From Jaapia argillacea MUCL 33604 (Eukaryota; Basidiomycota; Agaricomycetes; Jaapiales; Jaapiaceae), in contig KL197709.1 in NCBI GenBank assembly GCA_000697665.1, positions 659,877-723,876 on the forward strand: DNA of 64,000 nucleotides. Direction: 5' to 3'. Of the stretch, positions 3,126-50,439 are shown piece by piece; within the stretch, counting starts at the first letter, position 1, and each line of letters starts with the position of its first letter. The position numbers were made by a program, and so were the translations under genes. The notes under the pieces were generated by a model that saw nothing but the letters and a program-made list of their open reading frames with translations, was not told the DNA's origin and made no database searches.

Positions 3126-3566
3126 TATTGACAAAACATCCCATTTTTCAATCCTTTTTTGTACAACGTTATACATGTAATTGTTTGGATCACAGTGTAG
3201 ATGTACAAACCACTCCTCGCGATTGCAGCTGCGTAATTCCAGGTTAAGTTTGGGTACTTCTCGTTTCAAGATGCCATGGCTTTCTTGAGCTAATATGTGA
3301 CTGGACACGCTACACAGAATAATAACAGCTGGCTACTTGTAGGATTCCTCTGCCAAATTCAGAGGCTGTCTTATTGAAAGTGTGAGGATAGTGCCTGAGA
3401 CCCAACGCTCAGTAGCCTGAAAGCATCTCCGTCACTCCCGAGTGGAGCACCACGATCTATAGAACACCTAATGCAGCCGATAAAGATGTGGTTTGGACGC
3501 GATACAGTTACGCCACTGACTTGTTAATGCTCAGTATCATAATGCCACATTGACCACAAATGCCAT
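3126..3566. other. Intergenic, no gene seen
   Basis: This spacer between two tRNA-Arg genes has no supported coding frame on either strand. Short T-runs just after the first tRNA are its likely terminator. No repeat boundary was found. Confidence 0.5.
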
Positions 3567-3648
3567 GGCTACCTGGCGCAATGGTAGCGTGTTTGGCTTC
3601 GATTGCCAGCGTACCAAAAGGTTGCAGGTTCGAGTCCTGCGGTGGTCA
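3567..3648 (+). tRNA. tRNA-Arg (TCG) with 10-nt intron
   Basis: Acceptor GGCTACC pairs with GGTGGTC. The D-arm is GCGC AATGGTA GCGT, the anticodon stem TTTGG pairs with CCAAA, and the T-arm is GCAGG TTCGAGT CCTGC. The loop CTTCGA gives anticodon TCG, followed by a 10-nt intron. It differs from the copies at 18915 and 21788 by one base, a T in place of C at the 3' end of the D-stem, so one pair is G-U. Confidence 0.92.
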
Positions 3649-4124
3649 TTTGATTTTGTCTTTACCATCCGAGAATGTGTGGTGAACGAGTGACGAGGAC
3701 ACTAGTACTGAGAATCGAGTGGGAGGTAGTTTTTGACCAGGGATGGTTCAAAGAGGCTTGCATACTCGGGACAAGCACAACAGTAGCGAAACAGATCTGA
3801 GCTCGCGGAAGCGGAAGTATCAAGGGGACCTTTTGTGGTGCATGTGAGGACATTAGAAAGGATGCAGTAGCCAGGTGCGGAAGGAGGCGAAAGTAACGAG
3901 TGAAGACGACAACTGTAACATCGGAAAGTTAATTCCTTCGCAAGAAACGCAAGGAGTATAAGCTCTGTGTCATTTCAGCCGAGGCCACATGTACGCCCAT
4001 ACATCCCAGTATGTAGACGAATGAAGTGCATGTATTGTACAGCATATCTATGCAAGATGTTCTCCCTAACCCCTACGCCTCATCCGACTGTATAGCCTAC
4101 AAGGGGAAGCTCATCTCAAACCCA
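3649..4124. other. Intergenic, no gene seen
   Basis: There is no convincing reading frame or splice chain. The stretch separates the tRNA from the convergent 3' end of the SMP-domain gene. Confidence 0.5.
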
Positions 4125-18737: not shown

Positions 18738-18914
18738 TTGAGAGAATGAGAGCACCCCTGGATTAGAGCGGCGTTCAAGCTTGGATGAGGGACAACATCA
18801 CGAAATGTGCATGGGCGTCGTTCTTTTCTAAGTGGAACTCTGGCGCAGGAATTGCTGTACCTGAGGGTTATGTTTATTGCGTGGTCTTGTAGCCCTGTGA
18901 TTGTGAGGATGTAT

Positions 18915-18996
18915 GGCTACCTGGCGCAATGGTAGCGCGTTTGGCTTCGATTGCCAGCGTACCAAAAGGTTGCAGGTTCGAGTCCTGCGGTGGTCA
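18915..18996 (+). tRNA. tRNA-Arg (TCG) with 10-nt intron
   Basis: The cloverleaf is the same as for the gene at 3567, with a perfect D-stem (GCGC with GCGC). The sequence is identical base for base to the inverted copy at 21788-21869. A TTTT follows closely as terminator. Confidence 0.93.
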
Positions 18997-19202
18997 ATGT
19001 AGTTTTGGACATGTGTTTTTGACATGTGTTTTTTTTGCACAATTTCCCGTGACAAGGTTTGTTTCCGCGTCGCGTCCACGACATGACGCGCTGCTGAACG
19101 ATCAATTCCCAATTCCACAAGTTGGAGTACACCTCGGCCTCCTTTTTCTTGAAACCTCTCTCCATATACCTACCGCTGCATATCTGGGGTCCGTGCGCCT
19201 TG

Positions 19203-21643: not shown

Positions 21644-21787
21644 ACTGTTGTAGTGAATAGTTTTCGACTTTCATAGCATATGGACGGAGTTCTGCGTTTA
21701 CTTCCCCGAACAAGGATGAACCTAACATTTGGACAGACCAAGGACAAAATGTATACCACACGAAAAGCATATACAAGAATTTACTTA

Positions 21788-21869
21788 TGACCACCGCAGG
21801 ACTCGAACCTGCAACCTTTTGGTACGCTGGCAATCGAAGCCAAACGCGCTACCATTGCGCCAGGTAGCC
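21788..21869 (-). tRNA. tRNA-Arg (TCG) with 10-nt intron
   Basis: On the minus strand it is identical to the gene at 18915-18996, including the intron. TTTT is found about 20 nt past the 3' end. Confidence 0.93.
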
Positions 21870-22032
21870 ATGGAAGCTGAGTAGCTTCAAGGTCGTCATA
21901 TGAGCTAGTTATCAATATCTCCGGCTTCCTTGATCGAAGGCTGAGGCTATTCGTAGTAATCCCACCTTCCACAGCTGCTTTGCACTCGATAAATACCCAT
22001 CCCCTCGAGCCTTTACCAACCGATACCTCACA

Positions 22033-23213: not shown

Positions 23214-24040
23214 CTATTTCGGCCAACTAATGCCAGGTGAATCCGGAGGTAAACTAGATGATAATGGAAGGAACTGACGTTGAGAGGGGCAAGAATAGGA
23301 TCTCGGAGTCTGGCTGCTCGCGCAATCCAGTGTAGGGGGACAGGATAAAGGTCGAGGAACGGGGTCTCCGCACGTGGAGACGTGTCCTACAGGAAGGTCA
23401 GACTTAGATATCATCCAAGAACGGGAGACTCACCATTCACTTGCTCGGACGGCCCATGAGCGATCGTGGGGGCAACAAGGGAAGCATCAGAGAAGATTGA
23501 CGAAGGTTGATCACAAGCGCGATCGGTGTGTTGGCGTTGTCGCGCCTCCTCACTAGTGGTCTGGAGATACGAAAATGTCTCACTCGTCCTGCGAATTGCC
23601 TGACAATCGGTAGGGACCTACCAAGATTACTGCCCGCAATTTTTTTGTCTCGTTCGTGCAATTCCCAATCTCAAAGGAGAGTCCCAGACAAAACTCTCGA
23701 CATTCCTTCCAGGTAGAGGTAGCGCACAGTGTCTTTGTGCGCAGCTCGGATGCCTTCGCCCGCAAGCTACTTTGGTTTCAGCAAAGTCATTTGACAAACT
23801 GACTTCGGTTTATGACAGCACATACCCAGATAGTCGCCCGTGGAGCTTGACATTGAGGTGTGGATCAGGTAGGAAACCCTGATGCGTGGCAGAGCGAAGA
23901 ATCGTTTCCGTATCGGAAATGACCTCGTCCAGGTTTTTCTGTCTGGCTGAGGGTCGGTGTGATCCGTATAGGCCAAGGGCTAGGACTCCCAAAGAAACTC
24001 CGCCAGCCACATAGCCGAAGATGTTCGCGGCGTTGCTCAT
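23214..24040 (-). CDS. Small single-helix membrane protein, cluster copy A
   Basis: Four exons (24040-23826, 23769-23622, 23560-23434, 23386-23214) give 220 aa. Residues 7-26 (IFGYVAGGVSLGVLALGLYG) form one hydrophobic helix with small-residue GxxxG-like spacing. A predicted helical region follows (NLDEVISDTETILRSATHQG). Exon 2 carries the family core LRTKTLCATSTWKECREFC, with conserved Cys and Trp. The tail is Ser/Pro/Cys-rich and probably disordered. Two relatives lie in the window at 28519 and 31714. The first exon is exactly 215 nt in all three. The gene is divergent from the kinase-like gene at 24626. I know the family only as uncharacterised fungal proteins, and function is unknown. Confidence 0.75.
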
Positions 24041-24335
24041 CGACTGGAGGTCTGTTCTGAGCTAGAGACAAGACCAGGAGACTCGGAGGTGGGGACGTTT
24101 CCAAACATCCACTGCCCTCATCTTATAGTCACGTCGATAATAACAGTGCTCTGAAGCCAAAAACAGGCGTGTACCGGTCAAGATCAAATAATGAGATGAG
24201 GGTTCTTGAGGAAGAAACGCGTTTCTTGTGATGGAAAGCGTGGCTGCGACATCGGTTTGAACTTTGATCGTGTTGTCGTGTCACATGTGTGCCTTTTTCA
24301 CAGGTGGCATGCTGTGACATGCTGTACAGTAATTA

Positions 24336-24495
24336 GGGAGTTTGCGCAAGAGCCATTTTTGGCAACCTTACTGTACTAAGCGTAATAGTTCGCACGCTAA
24401 AAGCGCAACAGCTCCCCTGCCAAAAACCGCCATTTTTGGCGTTAAGTTACAGCGCTATAAGTATTTGGTATGCGCAAATGTACAAGCAAACTCCC
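24336..24495. mobile_element. Mariner-type MITE, about 160 bp
   Basis: The element starts GGGAGTTTGC and ends with its reverse complement GCAAACTCCC, and TA is found immediately outside both ends. TA duplication is the hallmark of Tc1/mariner insertion. The interior contains two GCCATTTTTGGC palindromes and no coding frame, so it is a non-autonomous element. It lies in the shared upstream region of the divergent copy A pair. No second copy was found in this window. Confidence 0.7.
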
Positions 24496-24625
24496 TATTG
24501 TGACATCCACGTGGGTAGGCCCATATCGGCGAGCCTAATTGTTTCGACCTTCACTTCAATGGGCAGGCTCGAAATCGAGGGAGGCCGCTATTGTTTCTCA
24601 CTTACTCCCCACACACCTCGGGCAG

Positions 24626-25926
24626 ATGAACGCAGCCCACGCCGAATTGCCCTCATGCGCTAGGTTGTCTCCATCGAACCTTCTGAATTGCGCGCGTGCC
24701 GAGAAGGAAGGAGCTTGGGTGTTGGATCCCATCGAGGAGGAATGGCGAGATCGCCAGCCGTTTCTAGCATCCAGAGGGTATATGTTACGTCCACGTTACA
24801 GACCAGGGTGGATCCCGTCGTGGCATGGCACTAACATCCACCCCTCCTACTGTGAGGATTCAATAGAGCAGCTAGTGAGCCAGAACTTGCATTCATTGGT
24901 AGGTGAAGCTAAACAAGAGACCATTTCCAGCTTCCACAAATTCTCGATGCGAGGCGACTAGATGGAACCGTGGTTGGCATAAAGCGGACGAAGAATACCA
25001 CCACTGAGATCGCAATAGCCCTGTTTCTGGCTAGCGAGAAGTGCAAGCGAGACCCAAGGAATCACTGTGTATCTATCTACGACAATTTCTCCGACCCACT
25101 GGAGCCAGATATATCCTTCATCGTCATGCCTTTGCTACGGCCATTTGATGATCCAGAATTCGGCACCGTCGGAGAAGTTCTTGACTTTATCGGTCAGACT
25201 CTCGAGGTGAGCGGGGTTTACCTCCTTAAGCATGTGTTTAGCTGATTTTCGCTTAGGGACTTATGTTCTTGCATAGCGTTAACGTCGCTCACAGGTACTC
25301 ATTCCCCTATATCTGTCGAAAGGAGAAGATAACAGTCTGATCAAGAGATTGTGTCGGCCTGAACATAATGATGGATGCACGAACTTTGTATCCTAAAGGA
25401 TGGCATCCCGTTCGGTATACCCATGCACCCAACGGCTTTCATGACCTCCCGCCGGCTTCCCGACTCGACGCAGGTGTTCGGTATCTTTTTATCGATTGGG
25501 GACTATCAACTCGATTCTTTCCCGGAGAGCGACCGCTGGTAACAGGCGTCAAAGGGCGAGATCAAGATGTTCCCGAGTTGTCAAGTACAACACCCTACGA
25601 TGCCTTCAAGGTCGACATATTTATCCTCGGACACGTGTACCAAACCGATCTTTACAACGTGTGTATCTTCTACTTGTCAATTCCCATTATTGTCTGACGG
25701 TGCATTTTATCTGAAGGTATATTACGGGCTCGACTTCTTGCTCCCTATTATTCGGACTATGATGGCCAACAATCCCCAGCTGCGACCGACAGCTGAAGAA
25801 GCTTTCAACGCGTTCCAGAAGGTCTATTTGAAGGTCATCCCGACGATGCTGAGAACAGGATTGCACCGGCGCGATGAGTCCATACCAAAATGGATATATA
25901 ATAAGGTCAAACGACTTGTGGGCTAG
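24626..25926 (+). CDS. Protein kinase-like protein, cluster copy A
   Basis: Five exons (24626-24874, 24931-25206, 25257-25294, 25346-25658, 25717-25926) give 361 aa. About 85 N-terminal residues form a family-specific module (WVLDPIEEEWRDRQPFLASR, then GYMLRPRYRPGW). The kinase-like domain lacks a glycine loop. It has the lysine in VVGIKRTKN, a hinge-like FIVMPLLRPFDDPEF, the catalytic loop VAHRDCVGLNIMMD (HRD with Asn) and FIDWGLSTRF, in which the DFG motif reads DWG. GVKGRDQDVPELS replaces the usual activation-segment APE, and AFKVDIFILGH corresponds to subdomain IX. It ends KWIYNKVKRLVG. The HRDxxxxN spacing is kept but the usual Lys after HRD is absent. Its substrates are unknown. It could be an active atypical kinase or a pseudokinase. 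Confidence 0.8.
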
Positions 25927-26443
25927 TAGTAGTCAGGGCTCTGTGAGATCCTGGCCTATTCTTTGTATTGTATGTCCCGTCCGGCCTCACCACTCGGACC
26001 CGAACTGACTTTTCAGACTGACTAGATCCTGATGTAGCAATCGAGAGGACGGCTTTTCAGTGTATCGTTTAGATCTTTGCGTGTCCGTCACCTCATTGGA
26101 TCTTTTTTCGCTCACGCTGTCTCTTGCACGTTATCTGACATTCTCATAATACCTTACCATTACAAGGCTTCCCGATATTCTCTCCTCGGAGGTGGGCCGC
26201 AGTCTGTTCTGTATGTATTGTAGAGAACACCGACCAGAAGGTTGGAATGCAGATAAGTTGCGTGGTCCGAAGACGATCGTTCCTGGAATGCATTCTACCG
26301 CCCCAGATGCGTGGTCTCTGGAGAAGCTGTGTCTCGATGTCTGCCTCAACGATCTCATCCAGGGCTTCTTTGCCCAAAACACAAAGATCAGATCAGATTG
26401 CCACATGAAGAGCGCCCCTTGGAAACGAGGAAAGCACTTCTCG
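25927..26443. other. Intergenic between pairs A and B, no confident gene
   Basis: Overlapping open frames exist on both strands around 26131-26590, but neither shows a start, splice chain or family motif that settles the strand. It may contain further exons of the uncertain minus-strand unit listed at 26444-26833. Confidence 0.35.
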
Positions 26444-26833
26444 TCACGTAACAACCGCGATTTGGATGGGGCACAGCTGTTCCCTCGGTCCAGAACGGAC
26501 GAAGGGAACGTTCTCATATCGGGAGCCTCGATCATCATTCGCGCCCTGCATCTCCCCCTCGTACCTAGGAACATGGTCGCCTCGTGGTAGGCACCTAAGA
26601 CTGACGCCCGTAACGACGGGCATGATAAACACGAGATTCGTGCGAATCTGATAGAGCAGTGCTGAAGTCCTCGGAAATGACTGATGGGTTCTGGTGATTA
26701 CAGTGAATTTATCATCCACGGATTGGAATCTCTTGAAAGCAATGGAGCACAAATCCGACAGGAACGATACATCTACAGGAGGGTCGGACGCCGAGTCAGA
26801 AATGTGATATATACGAGGATGGTCAAAGTTTAC
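26444..26833 (-). other. Possible exon of an unrecognised minus-strand gene
   Basis: An open frame of about 130 codons reads like coding sequence (FDHPRIYHISDSASDPPVD, then FLSDLCSIAFKRFQSVDDKF) but has no ATG at its head. It begins only about 12 nt beyond the stop of the kinase-like gene copy B on the same strand but in another frame. It could be an exon of a separate gene, a decayed duplicate, or an alternative 3' extension of copy B. No family was recognised. Confidence 0.3.
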
Positions 26834-26844
26834 ATTACAACGGG

Positions 26845-28164
26845 CTAAAGGCTGTGTCCCATGAAGTGTCGGATATTATTGAGTATTCGCTCGGGAACTG
26901 ATTCGTCTCGTCTCCGAATTCGTGAACGGATAGACGAGGGATCGAACCCCGAGAAGATATCCTTGAAATCGTTCAGTGCATCCTCTGCTGTAGGACGCCG
27001 ATCTGGGTCATGATCTGTCATTCTTCTGAGGAGGGGAATCAGGGGCGCGAGGCCATAATATGTCTGAACCGAGGGTTAGGTCCAGAGAAAACAACTTTTT
27101 TGCCAAGATGGAACCGACCTCCAGAAGATCCTCCTGATACATGTGTCCCATGGCATATACATCGACTTTGAAAGCGTCATAGGGGATCTCCCATGAGAGC
27201 TCTGGGACACTTCGATCGCGACCCTGCACACCGACGACGTAAGGTGGCTCTTCGGGTAGAAAACAAGTCGAGTTACCAAAATCGATAAAGTAATATCGCA
27301 CCGGGGTATCGAGCCGCGAGACCGGAGGTAAGTCATAAACCCCGTCGGGAGCACACCTCCGGCGTACGGGATGCCACCCTTGAGGAAACAATGGACGCGC
27401 ATCCATCATGATGTTGGGTCCTGCACAGTCCCTACAATAACGAGTTTGGATACACCATCGGATGTTATCGGGAGTAATACTCACAGATGCGCCACCCTGC
27501 GACTGTGCATAAAAGAAAGACCCTGGGTTCCCTGAGATTCCCCATCTTTGGGAAACAATGGAGGGAACATACCTCGAGAGTTTGTCCCACAAAGTCAAGT
27601 ACCTCCGCCAAGGCTGCAAATGGGGGATCATTATACGGCCTAAGAAGCGGCATAACGATGAAAGACATAGTCGTCTCGGAAGGGTCGGGGAAATAATCCA
27701 GAACAGTAACGGAGTGGTTCTTGGCGTCCAGGATGGAGGATAGAAAACGAGCAATATTTATCTCCGTCGTCGTATTCCTCGTCCGCTTCAGGGCAACTAA
27801 GGTCCCATCAAGTCGCCTGGCATCCAGTAGCTGTGGAGTCTACATGATCGAGTCAGAAAAATGTCAACCATCCATTCGTCCAACTTACCCGCTGAGCGAT
27901 TCCATCTTCGCAGAAATGTGGATCAAGGTTTGTACCCACCCATGAGGGTTTCCATGTTGGGTGATATCGAGGGCGCAGCAGGTAGCCCCGAGACGCCAGA
28001 AACGGTTGCTGGTCTCTCCAGTCCTTCTCGATGACATCGAGGTCCCATACACCTTGTTCGGATAGTTCAGCATAGTAGTGGGCAGCTGCGGGTTGGAGTC
28101 TCGCATAGCTAGGGATATCGCGGCTGGGCGAGTTGAAGTTGGTGGATGACATGGCGGGAGTCAT
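26845..28164 (-). CDS. Protein kinase-like protein, cluster copy B
   Basis: Five exons (28164-27889, 27839-27573, 27522-27485, 27431-27119, 27063-26845) give 370 aa. It follows copy A throughout. The N-terminal module is VWDLDVIEKDWRDQQPFLAS with GYLLRPRYHPTW. The kinase-like domain has the lysine in LVALKRTRN, FIVMPLLRPYNDPPF and FIDFGNST (intact DFG). Joining the 38-nt and 313-nt exons gives VAHLDCAGPNIMMD, so the HRD arginine is replaced by leucine while the Asp and Asn remain. The C-terminus ends RILNNIRHFMGHSL. Start: ATG at 28164, with a second in-frame ATG four codons on. It is divergent from the small membrane protein gene at 28519 with 354 bp between starts. Activity cannot be predicted. 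Confidence 0.8.
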
Positions 28165-28518
28165 TAGTGTGCAAGGTCACTACATTGACCATCCATTATT
28201 TACATAGTACTGTGGTCTTTGTCTAGATGAAGAACAAGCCAGGTCTTTCAGAGTAAAACTGGGCGGAATCAAGAGTGAATGTCGAACTTGGATGGCCTAG
28301 CAACACAATTGCTTCCGACACAACGCCTTCTCACACAAACTCATGGCTAGCGACAGAAACGAGGCCTTCTCCGGACATCGAGATCAAACCGACCTCTTTC
28401 CACGAAATCTTCAAGTTGCTCTGCTTCAGTTATCTGGAAATGTCAAGGGATTCCTATAAGATTCTGGTTTCTGAGGGCTCAACTTCACTGAGGCTCCCTC
28501 CGACAAACTGCTCTCCCA

Positions 28519-29026
28519 ATGAGCAAAGCCGCCGACATATTTAGCTATGTGGCCGGGGCCATCTCCCTCGCCGCACTCTTCATTTCTCTCATCTGGAGAA
28601 GTCTCCCAAGCACCCGAATGCAACGTCTTGAAGAAGTTCTAGAAGACACTACGAAGACACTGCGATCTGCAGTGGAAGATGGTGCTCTCCCGGACCACAA
28701 GATTGTTTCCAAATTTGAATATCGATTTACCCAGTGCGTACCTACATACCTTGGCAACCTGATTCTCTCTAAACCCCTGCACAAGGCTTCGGGCCGCGTC
28801 CAGAGGCTTACGTTTGAAGACACTCTCGACTTCCTATCCGTTGAAAGACTGGCTTGATCTGTGTGGCGGACTCCCCCGATCAATCGCAGACTGCACTGGC
28901 GAAGTTGAAGAGCTGAGAATTGAGATTATTGCAAGTCTTTCATCATGAGGCGCTCTCGAATTCATCTCACAGAATTCCTCCCTAGTCGAAAAGCGAAGCA
29001 GAACGCATTCGATTGTGCTCCAGTAG
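28519..29026 (+). CDS. Small single-helix membrane protein, cluster copy B
   Basis: Three exons (28519-28733, 28786-28930, 28973-29026) give 137 aa. The start MSKAADIFSYVAGAISLAAL opens a single hydrophobic helix, followed by a charged helical stretch (MQRLEEVLEDTTKTLRSAV). Exon 2 shows LRAASRGLRLKTLSTSYPLK and CTGEVEELRIEII, aligning with the core of copies A and C, though the Cys and Trp spacing differs. The second intron starts GCAAGT, so it is a GC-AG intron of 42 nt. The third exon is short (NSSLVEKRSRTHSIVLQ) before a TAG. A Pro-rich open frame at 29108-29473 resembles the tail exon of copy A and may be an alternative end. Confidence 0.7.
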
Positions 29027-29107
29027 AAGCTTGAGTCGAAGCCCGTCCACAAACTCTGACAATACACTGGTCGTTTCTCCCGCAATAGATCGCACGTTTT
29101 TGCGCAG

Positions 29108-29473
29108 CTTGGAAGGTCCGGAACTCCGAAATCACATTTGTCCCAGATGCTCACATACCTCGTTGCAGATCTGAGTCAGGAAACTCCTTGCGCGGGTGAA
29201 TCACCTGCGAGGCCGGCCTCTTGTCCGCCAGCAATTCGCACCCCCGTGCAGTTTCCTAAGCTTGCGCCCTCGCCTTCTAATGAAGTGCTCTTTTGCGATA
29301 AGACCCTGTACCGAGCTCCAGTACATCATGAACCTGTCGCCGAGACCATCCTCCATCAACACGAGGCCAAGAAACGCGGTTGGCGCCCTCAGAAATTCCT
29401 TCGACATCTATTCAAACCTTTGGGGAGTCGGAGGAAGAAAAGAGATCTGGAAGAAGGTTCGCGAGTGAGCTAA
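29108..29473 (+). other. Possible alternative 3' exon of small membrane protein copy B
   Basis: This open stretch contains SPARPASCPPAIRTP, which resembles PVPRPLSCPPTLD in the last exon of copy A. It then becomes strongly basic (KKRGWRPQKFLRHLFKPLGS) and stops at 29473. A TTGCGCAG acceptor precedes it. No donor in exon 3 of copy B joins it in a convincing phase, so it could be an exon used by an alternative transcript or a decayed tail. Confidence 0.35.
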
Positions 29474-29493
29474 CCTATGCCTCGAAGATAATG

Positions 29494-30065
29494 TCAAGGT
29501 AGCCCTTGACTCCAGAACCAACCGTCGCAGCCCTTCCTACTTAATGTAATATAGTTTCTGGAAACACCGTGTATCAATAGCAATCTATAGTCAGCCATAT
29601 TCCAATTCGTCGCTGGATCGAAGGCTCCCCATCTGAGAAGATGCGTATTATAAGCGACATCCCAAAAAGAAAGTCGCGGGTAATGGTCTGCCACGGAGAC
29701 TAGGGGAGGAGGATGCATGTTTTGTGTTCCGTACGACTAATGGCAAGTCACGAATATTCACGACCAATGACGAAGAGGAAATCGAGCAAAATGGCATTGT
29801 CGTGCACCCGTTGATACGCTGATCGCCCCATCCATAGCTTGGCTAAAGTGATGTCCCTCAAATGTTTCTTTGATACTGGGTGTGTTATGCAGATGCGGAA
29901 TATGACTGGTAATAATGATAGTGATAGCGACAATGAAAAGCTATAACGTACAGAGTCCTTGTTGGCGTAATACGGGACAAGAAACGGAGGAGCTACAGAA
30001 ATATGAGCATCTTTACACCATAGCCAAGGGCAAAGGTCAGCAAAGGCCACAACACGCAATGACAC
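29494..30065 (-). other. Possible exons of an unrecognised minus-strand gene
   Basis: Two open stretches look coding: AFADLCPWLWCKDAHISVAP (30065-29950 part) and VADHYPRLSFWDVAYNTHLL (29718-29494 part). No ATG heads the first and no splice chain unites them cleanly. Like the 26444-26833 stretch, this lies just beyond the 3' end of a kinase-like gene and on the same strand. Confidence 0.25.
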
Positions 30066-30105
30066 GACTAACCGAGGTGGGCAGGATATAAACCAGGATG
30101 GCCAG

Positions 30106-31383
30106 TTACTGGCCCACCAGTCGTCGCATACTATTGTATATACGTTCGTGAACGGGCTCGTCTCGTCGCCGTAGTCTCGCCCGCGAAGTGGCGGTACTGA
30201 TGCTCAAATAGACTGACTGAAATGAGTTGAAGGCAGCTTGGGCCGTAGGTCGCTGATTCGGATCTTCATTCGTCATAGCGCGAATGAGGGGAAGGAGAAA
30301 ATCGAGTCCTAGATATTTCTATGGAGGATATCACTCCCGACCCACGACCCCGCAATATTGAAACACTTACATCATGGAAATCGGTCTGATAGAGATGCCC
30401 AAGGATAAAGATGTCGACCTTGAAAGGGTCATAGGGAATTGTGTTCGAGAGTTCCGGTACATCTTGGTCTCTGCCCTTGGCACCTACGACTTCACATGAA
30501 TCTCCAGGGAGGAAGCGGGTAGCAAGACCAAAATCAATGAAATAATAGCGAACGGGGCAGTCTATTCGAGCTGCTGGAGGTAGTTCGCGGACACCATCTG
30601 GGCCACAGTTGGTTCGGATTGGATGCCAGCCTCGAGGGTATAGCGTTCGAGCGTCCATCATGATGTTCTGGTCGGCACAATCCCTTGAGTAATGATCAAC
30701 AACGGGAACACAAGTACAACTATGGTGAGCTACCTGTGTGCTACGCCCATTTTGTGTATGAATCCGATCCCCTGGAAAAAAGTAAGAAGGGTAGTCGAAG
30801 GTATTTCCCAAGCTCACCTCCAGCGTTTGGCCGACAAAGTCCAAGACTTCGCCGATATGAGCAAACTCAGGATCGTCGAATGGGCGCAGAAGTGGCATTA
30901 CGATGAATGCCCGCCCGGGTTCCAGAGGATCCGAAAATGTATCGAGGATCGGGACGCAGTGGTTTTTAGGATCACGTTGGTGAGAGTCAGAAGTCAGAAA
31001 ACGAGCGATTTCTGTTTCAAGGCTATGGACCTTCGTTCGTTTCAGACAGACAACGGTCCTATCTAAACGTGTTGCATCAAGGATTTGGGGAAGCTGCAAC
31101 CATCCGTGAGGTAAGTTCTTGCGGTGTAATTCGAACTCACAAGTTGTCTTATGGCATCTTCACAATAGAATGGATCGACATCTGTGCCAAACCAGGACGG
31201 TGTCCATCCAGGACGATATCGAGGCCGAAGCATATAGCCTCTGGACGCGAGGTACGATTGTCGATCTCTCCATTTCTTCTCCACAGTGTCAAGGTCCCAA
31301 GTGCCTTTCTCGGCTGCGATAGCATATCGGTGAGCGGTGGACGGGGAGAGTCTGGCGTGGGCGGGAAGTTCGGTGCCGTTCAT
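30106..31383 (-). CDS. Protein kinase-like protein, cluster copy C
   Basis: Five exons (31383-31141, 31093-30818, 30771-30734, 30683-30371, 30318-30106) give 360 aa. The N-terminal module has TWDLDTVEKKWRDRQSYLAS and GYMLRPRYRPGW. The kinase-like domain has the lysine in VVCLKRTKV, FIVMPLLRPFDDPEF, VAHRDCADQNIMMD (HRD intact) and FIDFGLATRF (DFG intact). It therefore keeps the most canonical catalytic motifs of the three copies. The glycine loop and the APE motif are missing, as in A and B, and DVPELS stands in the APE region. It ends RIYNSMRRLVGQ. The gene is divergent from the small membrane protein gene at 31714, with 330 bp between starts. Confidence 0.82.
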
Positions 31384-31713
31384 CTGCGAAAGTAGGCGTA
31401 TGCAGAAATCAGAAAATGATATTTGACTGCAGCATGGATCAACCTCACTGTGAAGGAAGTGACATTCTTCTGATCAAGATACTTACAAGGGTTCAGTGCT
31501 TGTGGTGTCTGCATGCTGGATTGCAACTCCGACATCGTCCTGCAACGCCTTCCACACATGCATCTGCCATGAACCAGCACTTTGGTCCTGCCAACCTAAA
31601 TCAGCGACGACATTTGCTATGCTATATAGTACCCATCTTCTCTACGAGGTCTCGGAGAACTCCCCTCGCTTACGACGGTCAAATCCTCCTTGACCCCCAC
31701 TGCATTTGTTGGG

Positions 31714-32350
31714 ATGAGCAACGCTTCGAATATTTTCGGCTATGTTGCGGGCAGCATCTCTCTCGCAGCTCTGATTATTGGCTACTTCGGAACCCGTCTA
31801 CCCTCGCTAAGAATGAAGGCTCTCGAAGAAGTCCTCTCCGAGACCGAAAACACCCTACAAACGGCGAAACAATCTGGCTTCCTCACTGATGACGACTTCG
31901 TGATCAAAGTCGAGGATTGCCTTGCGAGGTAAGTGGTGACACTCTCGAAATCTGGCGTATCGATTTATCCCTTTCAAAGTTTGCGTGCCACCTCCGCCGA
32001 ACTTCACATCAGGACTGTCTGTGCCACTTCAACATGGAAGGAGTGTACAGAAATATGCAAAGGTCTCTCAAACCAGATCTCGGGGTGCATCGTTGAGGTG
32101 AAGAAACTGAGAGCATCTGTGGTGGTGAGCCTCTCTCGGCCCGTAACATGGGACCGGCAGAGCTGATCTTCATCCTTAGACCACCAGTGAATCTGAACGG
32201 ATACGAATGCTTCGAGAGAACCGCTCCTCTCGGACGCAATCCATTCTTTCTGATCAGACTATGTTCCCTCCTGCTTTCGATTGCCACAGATCCTATCACC
32301 CATCTAGTGAGCGAGTAACCTTTCACAGTGATCTCGGGCTGATGAATAAG
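31714..32350 (+). CDS. Small single-helix membrane protein, cluster copy C
   Basis: Three exons (31714-31928, 31980-32124, 32180-32350) give 176 aa. It starts MSNASNIFGYVAGSISLAAL, a single hydrophobic helix, then KALEEVLSETENTLQTAKQS. Exon 2 has LHIRTVCATSTWKECTEICK and KKLRASVV, very close to copy A. Exon 3 begins TTSESERIRMLRENRSSRTQ, the counterpart of TTSEEARQR in copy A, and ends with a tail unrelated to A or B. The short Asn/Ser-rich N-terminus before the helix and the charged region after it suggest an N-out, C-in anchor. The start is the ATG at 31714, and the upstream in-frame TTG is ignored. Confidence 0.75.
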
Positions 32351-34595
32351 GCACAGCTCGCTCATGGTATACGACGGATATAATAGCACGCCCAGGGTCG
32401 TGCCCGCCATCAATAGACTGCACTGTGTCTTGGTGTCCCAAGCCAAGAGCTACCCGAGACGAACGTCAGTCCAATTCAATTCCCCACTTGATGTACAATG
32501 CTGAACATTTAAGAAGATGGTTTCTCGTCCCCGGGGTTTGTGTTGACGGCGGAGCCGTCATCATCTACTATGGTTTCACAACGGGACGCCGCCATGGAAC
32601 CGCCCGTGCGAAGTGCTTTTGGCGGTATCCTATCGGTGGTGAATTTCGTTCCGCAGATAATGTGGCGAACAAATCCACGATCTGACCTTGAGATGGGGGA
32701 GACATGAGCAGATAAATGTCTTAGCAGGTAGCACCCTTCCGCTCGGAATGTCGAACTTTTATCGGACTTACTAGATGGCAATGTGGTCTCATTTGTCGGA
32801 CGCTGGTAGAGGAACTGAACTCGGTTTTCTTTGTCGATTTCAATCATTGAAATCCTCCGATCGTCTGCCGAATGTCACATCCATTTCCACTACTTTTGCT
32901 GCGGCTCGGACTCCGATTTGTGTATCCAATGCTATCTTCAGATTCCTTCCCAGTTCTCCCAAGTCTACCACTTCCTAAAGTTCTCAGCTTCCAAAGGATG
33001 CCTTCGGCCCTACATCTCGAGTCGTTAGCTGCAGGAAACTGCCGACAACCAGTGCGACATCGGTGGGCAACTGTACATTCTCCGGAACTTGAAGCTCACC
33101 GGGTACGTGTGTCGCTATGTTGAGTAATGTACGTACTTACGCTATTTCCCCTTCTCAGCCCTCGGAGCGTCAGATTGACCTTCCCATCTACTGAAGGAGT
33201 CTCACCACCGAGACCTATTTGCGATGTGTCGCTGTGATGTGATCGACACTGAATTTTCTTTTCAGACCTGACCTCGGAGATACCGACGTTAACCTTGCGG
33301 GCGGTCAGGCGGTTGTGGCGCTCTACCATATTTGCCACGCTCTAGTCTAACTGCCACAGAACTATTCCCTTGAAATTTACCCAACTTTTATGATCCACCT
33401 TTTCCAGTGTGTCGCTGTTATCTGGCAGGGATCGTCTCATTCTTCCGACGCCTTTTCGTCACAGGTACGTTGTCCGACTCGCATGTGTCGCAGTGTTTTC
33501 ACCCGAATATCTCAAGTTGCCGCACTTTGTCCTATGTCCTTGTATTCGTTACTGCCATGCCATTCGCAACGATTCTTCACGTTTGTCGGCCTTCATCTTT
33601 CGTCGGCCTCTAGGAGGTGGATTCTTATTCCCCAAACCTTATAGATGAGGTTCCACACGGAAACCGAGAAAATCTGCAAGCGACCATCTCCAACCGTCAC
33701 CGATCGTCGTTGTTGCAGTTTCAGCCAAGGTGAGACGAAGATGACCGGAGGTTTTCAACCAAGTGAGGCAACCGTCCGATCGTCGTGGGTGTGCGCTTGT
33801 ATACAGCTGTACGTGGTTGTGCATACTTCTTGCCCGCTCCTCAACTGCATAATCGCTGCCTGACCGATGCTAGCCTCGAGGCCTACTGAGGTACATTCCA
33901 CGACCCACCTACATTCCGAGATGGATCCTCGTTCCGTTTTCCCAGACCTCTAGCGCATGCTCACCACCGAGCCCAAAGCAGCGCCGCAGCCAGAGTGCGT
34001 CGGAATTGGTGAAATGAAATGACCTTCTGCCTTCACTAGCCGCCCATTAACCCGCGTCTCCTCGACGTTAACTGACCGAGGGTCTTTGAAATCTGCTGTC
34101 GTTTCGAGTCGTCCTTCTCCTGGGATCCCTCCTTGTTAGGCGTTTCAAACATGTTCCTCTTGACTGCCGTAATAGCCAGCCATCATTCCGTCCTTTGTAT
34201 GAGATCATTTAGCATTCCCCTTGATAGTAGTTCTGCTCGAGTTCTGTGGTCCGATTCTCGCACCGCAATTTGTTTTCCTTCGCATTCAAGACCATGCGCT
34301 TCCTCGAAGTCTTCTTCTCCTGACATCCTCGTGCCTATCAAAATTCCCAGCAACAACGCGTCGTGGCGTAATGCCGGTTCTTCTTCCAATTGCGCACCGT
34401 CCACATGAGTGCGGGTCTCTCCCTGCTAATACGGTTAACCCCTTGACATGATCACCTGAAGGGGAGACAACGATCTCACACTCCCTCAAAAGGGCTCGTA
34501 GTGCTCGCTCTTTGTTCAGCCCGAGGGTTCTTTAATTTGGGTGCTATATATTCAACCATTCTCCCCATGTTGTCAGCCAAACTACACCGGAGCTG
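32351..34595. other. Gene-poor stretch of 2.2 kb
   Basis: Short open frames occur on both strands (for example minus 34404-34183) but none has family resemblance or a splice chain. No terminal repeats, tRNA or element ends were found. It forms the right edge of the kinase/membrane cluster and may hold decayed gene copies or lineage-specific exons that cannot be recognised. Confidence 0.35.
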
Positions 34596-36409: not shown

Positions 36410-36723
36410 ATCATCAAAAACCGGCTCGGACCTGTTCAGACAACCAGGTTGATATCCCAATTCAAAACGACTCACCTGGGAATCTGAAGGGCTAGTCTGG
36501 TAGGCATACCACCACAATCTATCCTGCTGACCTATCTGATAAACATATCGTTCCATTAACCAGTACTACGTATGCTACAACGATTAACGGAAACCCAGAT
36601 AATACAGTGTCATGACCAATACAAATATAGCCGAAGCCCACCCATTCTCTGCTCCTGTCAGGTTATGAGGAGTCCGAGAACACATACGTCCGAAAGAATG
36701 TCCCCTATAGCAACCCAATCAAC
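36410..36723. other. Convergent intergenic spacer
   Basis: This is the 3' flank of the F-box gene and of the convergent RAX1-like gene. Nothing else is visible. Confidence 0.45.
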
Positions 36724-38337
36724 TCAATGCACCCTACCCGGCACAGCCAACACAATGACTCCAAAGACGAACATCCAGCTAAATCCAACTCTATAGATAT
36801 CGTTCATAACTCTCGCGTGTACTTCTTTGATACGAGGGTCCAAAACAACCTTCTCCGGCCCAAAGACGGGCGGACGGGTGAGTGAGAGTGAGGAGCCGTG
36901 GGTTGCTTTCGACGTTGTTGTGAATGTGCGGAAGAGGTTACTTTGGGAGCTGAAAGGGGAGGGTGTGATGATGGACGATTTTGTTTTGTTTGAAGTTGTG
37001 GTGATAGGTGAGAATGGGGAGCGAGAAGGTGTTTGCGACGAAGAGGAATTCGGGGAATAGAGGAAGGAAGGGATGTGTGATGTATCCGTTATTGTCATCG
37101 GGTCATTGGCGACGTCCTTCAATGCGTGTTCCTCTGGGTTACGATCCGGAATGACTTGTGGACGTTCCCAGAACATCCAACTTTCTTCGTCTAATTCTGT
37201 GAACTCCCAAGGTCGGACCTGCCTATTCCCCCTCCTCCAAACATTTGAGCAAAACCTACACCAATCGCCAAATCAGTTTGACTCTAACATAATCAACAAT
37301 AAAACTCACCCTCTCCAAGCACTATACCACTGGGCTGCTCCCACACCCGCTATCACCACTCCAAACAGCCTATATGCTCTATTGGCTTGTGGAGGTGTGC
37401 TTAGCGTCATGATCAAGCTTAAAGAGATCGCCAAACCGATTAAGATATCCATGGAACCGATCGTGTACCAGAATATTTGGCGGGGGAGGTTGATATTCGT
37501 GCTTGCGTGGGACAGGAAGTGGGGGATCGAGGAAGATTCGAGGAGAGTGAAAGCCGCTTCGTAAAGGGGAAGAAACTGGCGGACAACCAATCATCGGTCG
37601 AGGAAGATGATCGACAAAAGGCGTACTCACGACATCGGGGTGTGTACTCCAAACTAGTTCTTTGAAAACCGAGTCTCGAACATCCGCGTCGATGTTGAGC
37701 TCTTTACTCGAACCCGCTCTTAGAAAGCTCGAGACGACGCGTGTACATTCATCTCGAAAAGGTTGAGCTGAGATGTGCGAAGCTGGGGGGACAGGTGGGA
37801 GGGGGAGGAGGGGATATGCCGACGAAACTGACAATGGGGTGATCGGGGTAATGGGAGAAGGAGGTAAGGTTGGGGCGGAGAAGAGTGTGTTTGGCGAGGT
37901 TGGGCTTGAGGGAGCTTGGTCTGGAGACACGGATAATGTGACCCAACTGTTGCTCCCACTCAGATCCGCGGCGTTAGTGGGCGACAAGTGCGCTGGTTTG
38001 TTTTGTTTGAGAGTTTGGGCCTGTTGACGAGGACTGGCGGGCTGTTCGCCAGATGGGAGTGCAGAGAAACGTCTACGATAGTCCTACAAAGATACCGGTC
38101 AGGTCGGGAGAGGGGAAAGAAAGGATAGGGGCATACCTGATACCATATCACAAAATGGAGGTTTTCCAAAGAGTGTTCATGAAAAGCAAGGTACCCCTCA
38201 AAGTCCCTCAAACTGATGGGCGCACATGTATCCCCTGCCAAAATGTTGTGGAGGGTGATCCTCCTCAACTGAGGGGATAAGTTTAACTTCGCAGCGTATG
38301 AATCAAGTTTGGCGGAATAGATCTTCCGACGAGACAT
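36724..38337 (-). CDS. RAX1-like RGS-domain membrane protein, copy 1
   Basis: Four exons (38337-38137, 38083-37631, 37575-37310, 37255-36724) give 483 aa. The N-terminal half matches an RGS-type fold: LRRITLHNILAGDTCAPISL, then FHEHSLENLHFVIWYQDYRR. The second part of the fold (ECTRVVSSFLRAG, ELNIDADVRDSVFKEL, FLPLYEAAFTLLESSSIPHF) follows a Ser/Pro-rich insert. Three hydrophobic segments lie C-terminally: IFWYTIGSMDILIGLAISLS, YRLFGVVIAGVGAAQW, and VGFSWMFVFGVIVLAVPG at the end. This layout is that of Rax1, a bud-site and polarity factor in yeast. A polarity role here is inference. A conserved segment VFGPEKVVLDPRIKEVH precedes the last helix and recurs in copy 2 at 48641. Confidence 0.82.
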
Positions 38338-39428
38338 CAAGGCCAAGCAAGTTGACAAGAAAAACGAAGGGAGTCGAATCGAAAGAGTGTGAATCAGCCA
38401 ACAAGGAGGGGGGAGAGAACCAAAACGCGCATTTGCAGGCGCTCCACCGTCGAAAGGGGTCTATAACACCTGAACTTGAGCAACCAGGCACTAACTCTAC
38501 GGACCAAAGTAACATCGTTATGAAACTTATTGGTGACGAAGCTGAGAATCATAAACCATGATTTCGAAAGGGGTCTGTTATCACGGCAAAGGGGGATCGA
38601 ACCAAAACATCGGCGAATCGGAGGAAGAATGGTGGTCGACAAGGTCGCACTCTCCGATCAAACTTCAGGTTTTCAAGGTGCTTCATCGAGAGAACCTGGC
38701 CGTAAACATAGACAGTTCCCGAATCTGTGTGATCATCGATGATTCTTCTCCAGTTCCTGACCCTTCACCGCGGCCTTACCTGCTCGATGGAGCTGTTCAA
38801 GAACCAAGTCCTCCACAGGTATTTTCATCCCAGGAAAAAGGGGGCCAGCAAGCACCTGCGATGGTGCGATATCAGCGCTCAGGCTCCAATCGCAGTATGC
38901 ACCAGGAGACAGCACAAGATACCAAGTTAACGATGACGTGTGAAGCCCCTAAAAACATCCTCGTGGGTTCATATCAGCGACATACGGGCGCCCGTCCGAC
39001 CATCGTGGTCGTACCGGAGTATTCAAGTGCCGTGATGTGTTCATTGCGAGGGTTCGTAGAGAAAGAGGTCGAGAAATGGAATCGCGCAATGCGGCGGCCA
39101 TAGTTTCATCACCGCACCATATAGCTAGGGCAGCAATTAAGCTTGAATCGCTGGACAGGCCTTCTAATCGGCCCAAGGGGTTCTCTGAGCAGCAAGATCC
39201 GTTTCAACACATAACCTACCGTCGTTTCGAGTCATCGATACTGAGAGCGTGTGAGGTAGACCAGAAGGCCCGAGGAACTCTACTCACGGAGGCCTAAGAG
39301 GACATTGAGCGGATCGTCAACCCTCTCAGTACACGTACGAGGAAGCCACCAGCCAACAGAAAGAAACCATCTACTCGCAATTATCTGAAAATATTATTAC
39401 ACACCCTCCGACATTATCCCATCTTATC
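38338..39428. other. Intergenic, no confident gene
   Basis: A plus-strand frame of 181 codons (38558-39103) and shorter minus-strand frames are open, but none has a family motif or splice support. The 38338-38420 part is the upstream region of the RAX1-like gene, and the right end is the 3' flank of the coiled-coil gene. Confidence 0.4.
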
Positions 39429-48429: not shown

Positions 48430-48640
48430 ACTCCAACTCAACCAATCTTCACGAGATTGTTTATCATCAGTAAACGACATTTGTTAATTATGGATAATGA
48501 TACATATACATTAGGGAAAGATACAGCGAGTGCTCTCTGAGCTTCAGTTTCGCCAACAAAACATAAGTACTAAAATACAACCGATGCTTCACAACTCCGA
48601 AATCGACATCATGCATGACTCCTCAGCCAAGTACAACCTA

Positions 48641-50439
48641 TCAACGCACCCGAGCGGGCAGAGATAATACGAGAGCACCGAATAACAAACACCAAACCGC
48701 TGCAACACAATAAAGATCTCGTATCACCCTTCTATGCACCTCTCTGATCCTCGGATCTAATACAACCCTCTCGGGACCAAAAACCTCTGGTCGAGGAAGC
48801 GAAGTCAACGACGCGCGTGCATGTTGGGAGTTCGTGGTGGTGGTTATAGACGACGACCGCGTCAAAGGAGTTTGGGAGGGATAAGGGAACGGACTGATAC
48901 TTGCTGAATCGAATTCACATTGATTCTTGATGGAAGGGACGGGGACGTTGGTTATATTTGTGGTTGAAGATGGGGATGAGTGGGTGTAAGTTGTGTTGAA
49001 ATCGGCGAGGGGCGGTTCGCGTTGGAGATCAACGGCGGAAAGTGCTGAGGAAGAGGAGTACGAGATGAAAGGAGCGGCCGAGGACATTTCGAGTGCCCCT
49101 TTATCCTCCAACATCGATGCGTCGATGCAAAGGGAAGATGACTCCACATCGCAATCCACTCGGATTTCGTCACTGGGTTCTTGATTTCTTTTCGAGCAAG
49201 GAGGGCAGGATTGACGAGTTTCCGGACCGAAAATACGGTCTCTGTCCCAATAACTCAATCCGGCTTCCTCATCGTCCTCATCTTCACGAAGTTCCCAAGA
49301 TCGGATTTGACGCGTACCGCGTATCCACATACTTGCACAGAATCTACAAGCATACTCATGAAAATTTGTTGCCCAAAGTTGTGATGGAGAAACTCACCCT
49401 CTCCATGAACTATAACAGTACAAGACGCCCACCGTGCTCGAAATCACGACGAGTAAACGGAGTGCCCGATGGACTGGGACACTGAATGCAAGCAGTAATG
49501 TCAAGGTCAGGGCGAGGGATGCCGAAAGCGTCGATACGCCGATGATGAACCAGAGGAATTGACGAGGGAAGTTCACAGCTGTCGCCGAATGCGCCAAAAA
49601 ATGGGGCAGAGAGGACGATTGCAATAGGGTATATATTGAATCGTAAATCGGTAAAAACTGTCGAAAAAAAAACCTCTTTGAGGACGGTGAACGAGGGGGA
49701 AGAGAAAAGTGAACTGACGACATCGGGATGGGTGGTCCACATCAGATCCTTGAGGACATCGTCTCGAAGATCCGAATCGATGTTCAATTCTTTGCGGGCT
49801 CCTGGTCTCAGAAACGCAGACACAACCCGAGAACATTCTTCTCTGAACGGCTGAGACGCTGGGTCCGAAAATGTCTCAGCTACCTTCGGCAGCGGATGAA
49901 GTGGTGCACCGGTGGAAGACGCAGCGGACATTGGTAAGGAGTAGGGAGGAGTAAGGAGTGTCGGGGATATAGATAGCGTTGGGCTGAGTAGAGCCGTGCT
50001 GCTGCTGATACTCATTGACGCCGATTTGGTCCGGCTGAGGGACGTCTCGCTGGGCATGAACTTCTGGTCACCATACGATCTCTTGAGCGGGGAAAAGAAT
50101 TCTGAGCGCCCAGGTCCTGGACTGGTAGCTTGTACATCCGGGGGAAGTGCAAGGAACCGTCTGCGATAATCCTGCGAGATCGATCGGCGAAAGCACTTTG
50201 CTTCAACCGATGAAATATGCACGCACCTGATACCATATGATAAAGTGCAGATTTTCAAGCGAGTGTTCAACGAAGGTGAGATAGCGCTCGAAATCCCTCA
50301 GGCCGATGGGTGAACAAGTGTCTCCAGAGAGAACATGGTCCAGGTTTATTTTTCTCAGAGAGGCCGTCAAGTTGAGCTTCCTCGAATAGCTGCTGAGCTT
50401 AGGAACGTAAGATTTCGACAGATAGCTCCTCCTAGGCAT
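48641..50439 (-). CDS. RAX1-like RGS-domain membrane protein, copy 2
   Basis: Four exons (50439-50227, 50171-49719, 49657-49398, 49343-48641) give 542 aa. It parallels copy 1 at 36724 exon for exon. Landmarks are LRKINLDHVLSGDTCSPIGL, FVEHSLENLHFIIWYQDYRR, EECSRVVSAFLRPG, ELNIDSDLRDDVLKDLMWTT and FLPIYDSIYTLLQSSSLPHF. Three hydrophobic segments follow, the first LWFIIGVSTLSASLALTLTL and the last VAAVWCLLFGALVLSLPARV. Exon 2 is exactly 453 nt in both copies. The loop between helices 2 and 3 is longer here, Ser-rich and Asp/Glu-rich (LREDEDDEE). The conserved VFGPERVVLDPRIREVHRRV precedes the last helix. It probably acts at the plasma membrane in polarity or G-protein-type signalling. That is inference from the yeast relative. 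Confidence 0.84.

Follow-up and report, generated by a model that had tools for sequence, protein, structure and literature searches.

Expansions of protein kinases in the Agaricomycetes have been in print since 2010, including the TKL expansion of Laccaria bicolor (PMC2838846) and FslK (PMC3937382), the latter defined by best match to tyrosine-kinase hidden Markov models together with clade. The portions of these two papers used here name no partner or pathway for the expanded kinases. The window analysed in this study, a 64,000-nucleotide stretch of Jaapia argillacea MUCL 33604 (contig KL197709.1, positions 659,877 to 723,876), contains three kinase genes, kA, kB and kC, each lying head to head with a small gene for a predicted membrane protein, here called the partner (sA, sB and sC). 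As far as the cited portions describe the FslK and TKL expansions, the three kinases resemble them in being mostly stand-alone kinase domains of mushroom-forming fungi, in being multicopy and in having an exact function that is undetermined. They differ in lacking the GxGxxG loop and in having the catalytic Asn and the DFG Asp some 44 residues apart. No description of this kinase and partner pair was recognised in the open PMC literature, judged by title and the start of the abstract among the matches listed.

Structure and duplication of the gene pairs

Spliced gene models were built by hand from splice sites and from the mutual similarity of the copies. Five of the pair proteins (the three partners and the kinases of pairs A and C) were used as tblastn queries against the window, which returned three loci for each of the two families, kinase and partner; all further matches had E values of at least 0.10. 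Matches between kinase copies reached E values down to 4.5e-100 and those between partner copies ranged from 7.6e-16 to 5.6e-20, a similarity far beyond chance in both families. An earlier note, made from the letters of the window, had described three divergent pairs of a small membrane protein gene and a kinase-like gene of about 360 amino acids, with pair A inverted relative to B and C. Number, size and orientation were all confirmed: the kinase models are intact, with five exons each, GT..AG introns at the same places and no internal stop, and pair A has its partner on the minus and its kinase on the plus strand, the reverse of B and C. The distances between start codons had been given as 585, 354 and 330 bp; those of pairs A and C hold, and that of pair B was corrected to 366 bp, the value of 354 bp fitting an in-frame ATG 12 nt further upstream.

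The amino-acid identity between copies was 58 to 64% for the kinase and 43 to 55% for the partner over its first 120 residues (42 to 54% on 122 columns). Of the fourfold-degenerate sites, 68 to 79% differed, which amounts to saturation (101 to 109 sites in the kinase, 28 to 33 in the partner). The NG86 method gave no estimate of synonymous divergence in five of six comparisons and 4.7 for sA and sC, and YN00 gave no value in any. As silent sites are saturated and the proteins conserved, both genes are old and have been under protein-level selection since duplication.

Copies A and C were the closest in both families, in 1973 of 2000 bootstraps for the kinase and 1950 of 2000 for the partner; two families would share the same closest pair by chance in one case out of three. 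Copy B alone was different at 56 sites of the kinase, against 32 and 32 for the other two copies, and at 26 sites of the partner, against 13 and 12. B therefore stands apart about equally in the two families, which indicates parallel change in the two genes of a pair. With no outgroup in the comparison, an older split of B and a faster B are both compatible with these counts, and the genes of a pair are alike either way. Because A and C are non-adjacent and in opposite orientation, copying or transfer seems to have involved the unit as one piece, and the simplest explanation of the three complete copies is that the whole unit was duplicated at least twice. The shared gene structure, the conservation of the proteins despite saturated silent sites and the common closest pair support the conclusion that the pair behaves as a unit, and do so more strongly than the earlier note could.

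Properties of the kinase and its partner

The beta-3 Lys, the catalytic Asp and Asn, the Asp of D(F/W)G and the PEL, DxxxxG and RPTA motifs are kept in all three kinases, and variants of the catalytic motifs were found in kB (HLD) and kA (DWG for DFG). The glycine-rich loop was not found in the first 110 residues of any of the three, a stretch that holds the beta-3 Lys, and the term atypical kinase used in the earlier note is therefore apt. With PF00069, which has a gathering score of 31.7 bits, kC scored 33.6 bits, and kA (27.7 bits, E value 2.3e-6) and kB (24.6 bits, 2e-5) remained below the threshold. Pkinase_fungal, which we take to be the Pfam model that covers FunK1, matched none of the three at an E limit of 10. 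Matches to sequences in the PDB were mostly short stretches around the catalytic loop, the best with an E value of 0.0041. A PADLOC match to mad6 (2.2e-11) was rejected as general kinase similarity, the NCBIfam model MAD6 reaching 10 bits against a cut-off of 460; the other four NCBIfam matches were also far under their cut-offs. From their residues, the kinases are most likely catalytically competent but atypical, kB being the most doubtful.

Relatives outside the window were sought as well. Scans of viral contigs found none, and a scan of genome contigs, which yielded no fungal relative, gave 49 pattern matches and from these a single locus, in Propioniciclava (35% identity over query residues 127-202), which was taken as a generic bacterial kinase.

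The partner had been described as a small single-helix protein. One hydrophobic N-terminal helix is indeed present, and the protein is more than a helix, with a conserved region of about 120 amino acids and a tail. Exon 1 has 215 nt in all three genes and exon 2 has 148, 145 and 145 nt in sA, sB and sC; these two exons encode the conserved region, and conservation ends at about residue 120. Exon 3 opens with TTSEEARQR, SKSEAERIR and TTSESERIR, respectively, and continues into the poorly conserved tail, of which Ser and Thr make up 10 of 43, 14 of 43 and 15 of 67 residues (22 to 33%) in the stretches counted. The 3' ends of sA and sB are uncertain. The acceptor of sA exon 3 was picked by similarity to sC, and an initial model of sB exon 3 was dropped, as the other frame aligns with sA and sC; the open frame of sB continues to 29473. 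Intron 2 of sB (28931-28985) appears to have a GC donor.

Residues 7-25 of the partner are uniformly hydrophobic and directly followed by Arg or Lys. The best 19-residue hydropathy was 1.75, 2.23 and 1.86 for A, B and C, with a low hydrophobic moment (0.11, 0.22 and 0.17), and the highest moment in all three was found in an amphipathic stretch at about residues 34-52. A 19-residue hydropathy of 1.6 is a rule of thumb for transmembrane segments, and all three partners exceed it; by the positive-inside rule, the basic residues just past the helix give an N-out/C-in orientation. These properties predict a single N-terminal membrane anchor with the remainder of the protein cytosolic. The membrane-anchored adaptor suggested in the earlier note fits this hydropathy as a putative role; a part in self/non-self or stress signalling, also raised there, would be speculative.

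No Pfam model reached its cut-off with any of the three partners, and no NCBIfam or PADLOC model did so with sC, the sole partner scanned there. A Pfam match of sA to Defensin was rejected, with an E value of 0.0059, a score under the cut-off and one of three partners concerned. Against PDB sequences the partner profile matched two designed proteins only (0.76 and 3.8), and sC alone gave no match. An AlphaFold2 model from a five-row alignment, which carries 17 intron-encoded residues from a contiguous reading, had helices at residues 3-24, 30-53, 60-79, 99-105 (short) and 108-136 and a mean predicted local distance difference test score (pLDDT) of 49.9. A second model, from one row, had helices at 5-53 and 108-121, some strands and a mean pLDDT of 48.8. 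Foldseek rows for FAT domains (E values of 0.35 and worse) were rejected, the partner model being poor.

Proposed mechanism and alternative explanations

From sequence, functional coupling of kinase and partner is plausible. We tentatively prefer a reading, possible but short of probable, in which the partner would be a membrane-anchored platform or effector and the divergent kinase its cognate regulator, phosphorylating or docking on the cytosolic part, with copies that diverge in specificity. The first helix of the partner would insert into the membrane with its N terminus outside and its C terminus inside, and the conserved region and the Ser/Thr-rich tail would face the cytosol. The soluble kinase would bind this cytosolic region and then phosphorylate the tail or dock on it, the partner being both the membrane anchor and the substrate or effector of its cognate kinase. 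A single signalling pair would then exist in three diverged versions, probably separated by specificity.

Several observations weigh against such coupling. Only one of the three kinases reached the PF00069 gathering score; in the absence of a glycine-rich loop ATP binding may not be assured, and the HLD of kB could mean lowered activity. Both partner models are poor; they have in common an N-terminal half that is helical up to residue 53 and one helix at about 108-121, and differ elsewhere. A codon-usage score in the window was as high for gap frames as for the kinases and did not separate coding from non-coding sequence, which leaves similarity between copies as the sole basis of the partner tails. 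The three copies may reflect as few as two duplication events instead of three independent observations. If linked neighbours were duplicated as a block, the pairing and one shared history would follow as well, so that linkage by itself could account for part of the pattern. With the insertion in A left out, the three spacers had no 8-mer in common and one 7-mer, which is what shuffles give; co-regulation via shared spacer motifs is not supported. The earlier argument from persistent pairing to joint work or co-regulation stands as far as the unit behaviour is concerned (gene structure, A and C closest in both families), and shared spacer motifs lend co-regulation no support.

Passive linkage, by which two unrelated neighbours were duplicated as a segment, in tandem or inverted, and kept for separate reasons with products that do not act together, is a serious if still doubtful alternative. 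All copies lie within about 9 kb and share no spacer motif, fungal genomes often contain closely spaced divergent neighbours, and a second duplicated region in the window (36.7-38.5 and 48.6-50.4 kb) indicates that local duplication is not special here. The saturated silent sites, however, imply ample time for losing one member, yet all three copies are complete; the window holds no orphan kinase or partner copy, and copy B stands apart to a similar degree in both families. The same joint history is left unexplained by the assumption that the kinase acts alone within the expanded agaricomycete repertoire and that the partner is a constitutive membrane protein of the endoplasmic reticulum or mitochondria outside signalling. 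Kinase expansions in print (PMC3937382 and PMC2838846, in the portions used) would suit this assumption, as would a hydrophobic helix that could be an ordinary signal anchor, but we consider it improbable.

It is unlikely that the pairs form a split necroptosis-like module resembling MLKL, with the partner as a membrane-permeabilising protein of HeLo or four-helix-bundle type whose N-terminal helix inserts on activation, the kinase-like protein as sensor or activator and the copies as separate specificities in allorecognition or immunity. In its helix order the first partner model resembles the h1-h2-h3-hM-h4 arrangement of MLKL and HeLo-like domains as given in part of PMC9815663, a likeness in a model that may serve as a lead only, and the same source, as far as used, puts the putative stand-alone pore-forming domains of Basidiomycota in the hundreds. 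Against this, none of the three partners matched a HeLo profile in Pfam, in searches whose HMMER filters discard most matches above about 0.1, and no MLKL or HeLo chain appeared in the PDB sequence searches. The first model is of low confidence and contains the intron-encoded residues, and the second lacks the four-helix order. Foldseek with the first model gave no match at an E value of 0.001 or less and no MLKL or HeLo among the best 50 of 124 rows; helix 1 of the partner is uniformly hydrophobic, not amphipathic. The broader idea that mushroom fungi have a split, MLKL-like recognition system of two proteins, in which a cytosolic kinase-like regulator is encoded head to head with a membrane-inserting helical effector and arrays represent separate specificities, appears very unlikely to us. 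If true, it would supply a missing molecular basis for non-self recognition or antiparasite cell death in basidiomycetes.

A membrane partner that is duplicated together with its kinase would offer a handle on the role of at least one branch of the Agaricomycetes kinases, and would give mushroom signalling or recognition a candidate open to direct testing.

Surroundings of the pairs and comparison with described systems

With a GC content of about 50% and short GT-AG introns, the window looks like part of a fungal chromosome, and its gene content fits an agaricomycete. The three pairs (Table 1) are flanked by a probable protein-kinase gene (19.1-21.6 kb) on one side and an F-box gene (34.5 kb) on the other. 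The former matched PF00069 on one open reading frame (ORF) with an E value of 3.9e-5, under the gathering score, and looks CDC7-like by eye only. Another ORF, at 22.0-22.6 kb, lies in the interval between these two genes and had no Pfam match. A gene between kA and kB (25930-26840) was sought and none was established.

Table 1. Positions in the window of the paired genes, their spacers and the insertion resembling a miniature inverted-repeat transposable element (MITE)
Feature	Position	Strand	Description
Partner gene sA	23434..24040	-	exon 1 24040-23826, exon 2 23769-23622, exon 3 23560-23434
Possible further sA tail exon(s)	down to ~23214	-	candidate only
Pair A spacer between start codons	24041..24625		585 bp
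MITE-like insertion in pair A spacer	24334..24497		164 bp; perfect 12-bp terminal inverted repeats and a TA at each end
Kinase gene kA	24626..25926	+	5 exons, 361 aa, HRD, IDWG
Kinase gene kB	26845..28152	-	5 exons, 369 aa, HLD for HRD, IDFG
Pair B spacer	28153..28518		366 bp
Partner gene sB	28519..29115	+	exon 1 28519-28733, exon 2 28786-28930, exon 3 from 28986, end uncertain
Kinase gene kC	30106..31383	-	5 exons, 360 aa, HRD, IDFG; sole copy over PF00069 gathering score
Pair C spacer	31384..31713		330 bp
Partner gene sC	31714..32383	+	exons 31714-31928, 31980-32124, 32180-32383; 187 aa

Without the MITE-like insertion the spacer of pair A measures 421 bp, and no second copy of the element was found in the window, where its only other matches have 19 and 13 nt. 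Repeats of a TGTGTCGC-containing motif lie between sC and the F-box gene (33100-33490); one pair of these was computed and the others were seen by eye. Three tRNA-Ser(CGA) genes are predicted in the window (3566-3649, 18914-18997 and 21787-21870), one lying some 1.6 kb away from the pair array. The two copies of the second duplicated gene region (36700-38500 and 48600-50400) are both on the minus strand and 56 to 68% identical over four conserved segments; two ORFs scanned in the 36700-38500 copy had no Pfam match, and the region is RGS-like by eye only.

Two described systems other than the kinase expansions invite comparison, both considered from parts of the papers cited. With MLKL and the fungal HeLo-HELL modules (PMC12881547, PMC9815663) the locus shares a kinase fold and a predicted-helical membrane protein in a small gene cluster, and an N-terminal membrane helix. 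It differs in that the two components are encoded by separate genes, with no HeLo profile match and a fold that is unproven; no NLR gene was identified near the pairs among the 10 flanking ORFs scanned. With the two-gene death clusters of fungal gasdermin and protease (PMC12881547) it shares the presence of several copies of two adjacent genes, one for a putative membrane protein and the other for its putative regulator. The regulator here is a kinase and not a protease, and nothing found ties the partner to gasdermins; the adjacency of regulator and effector recurs in all three pairs, within this one window.
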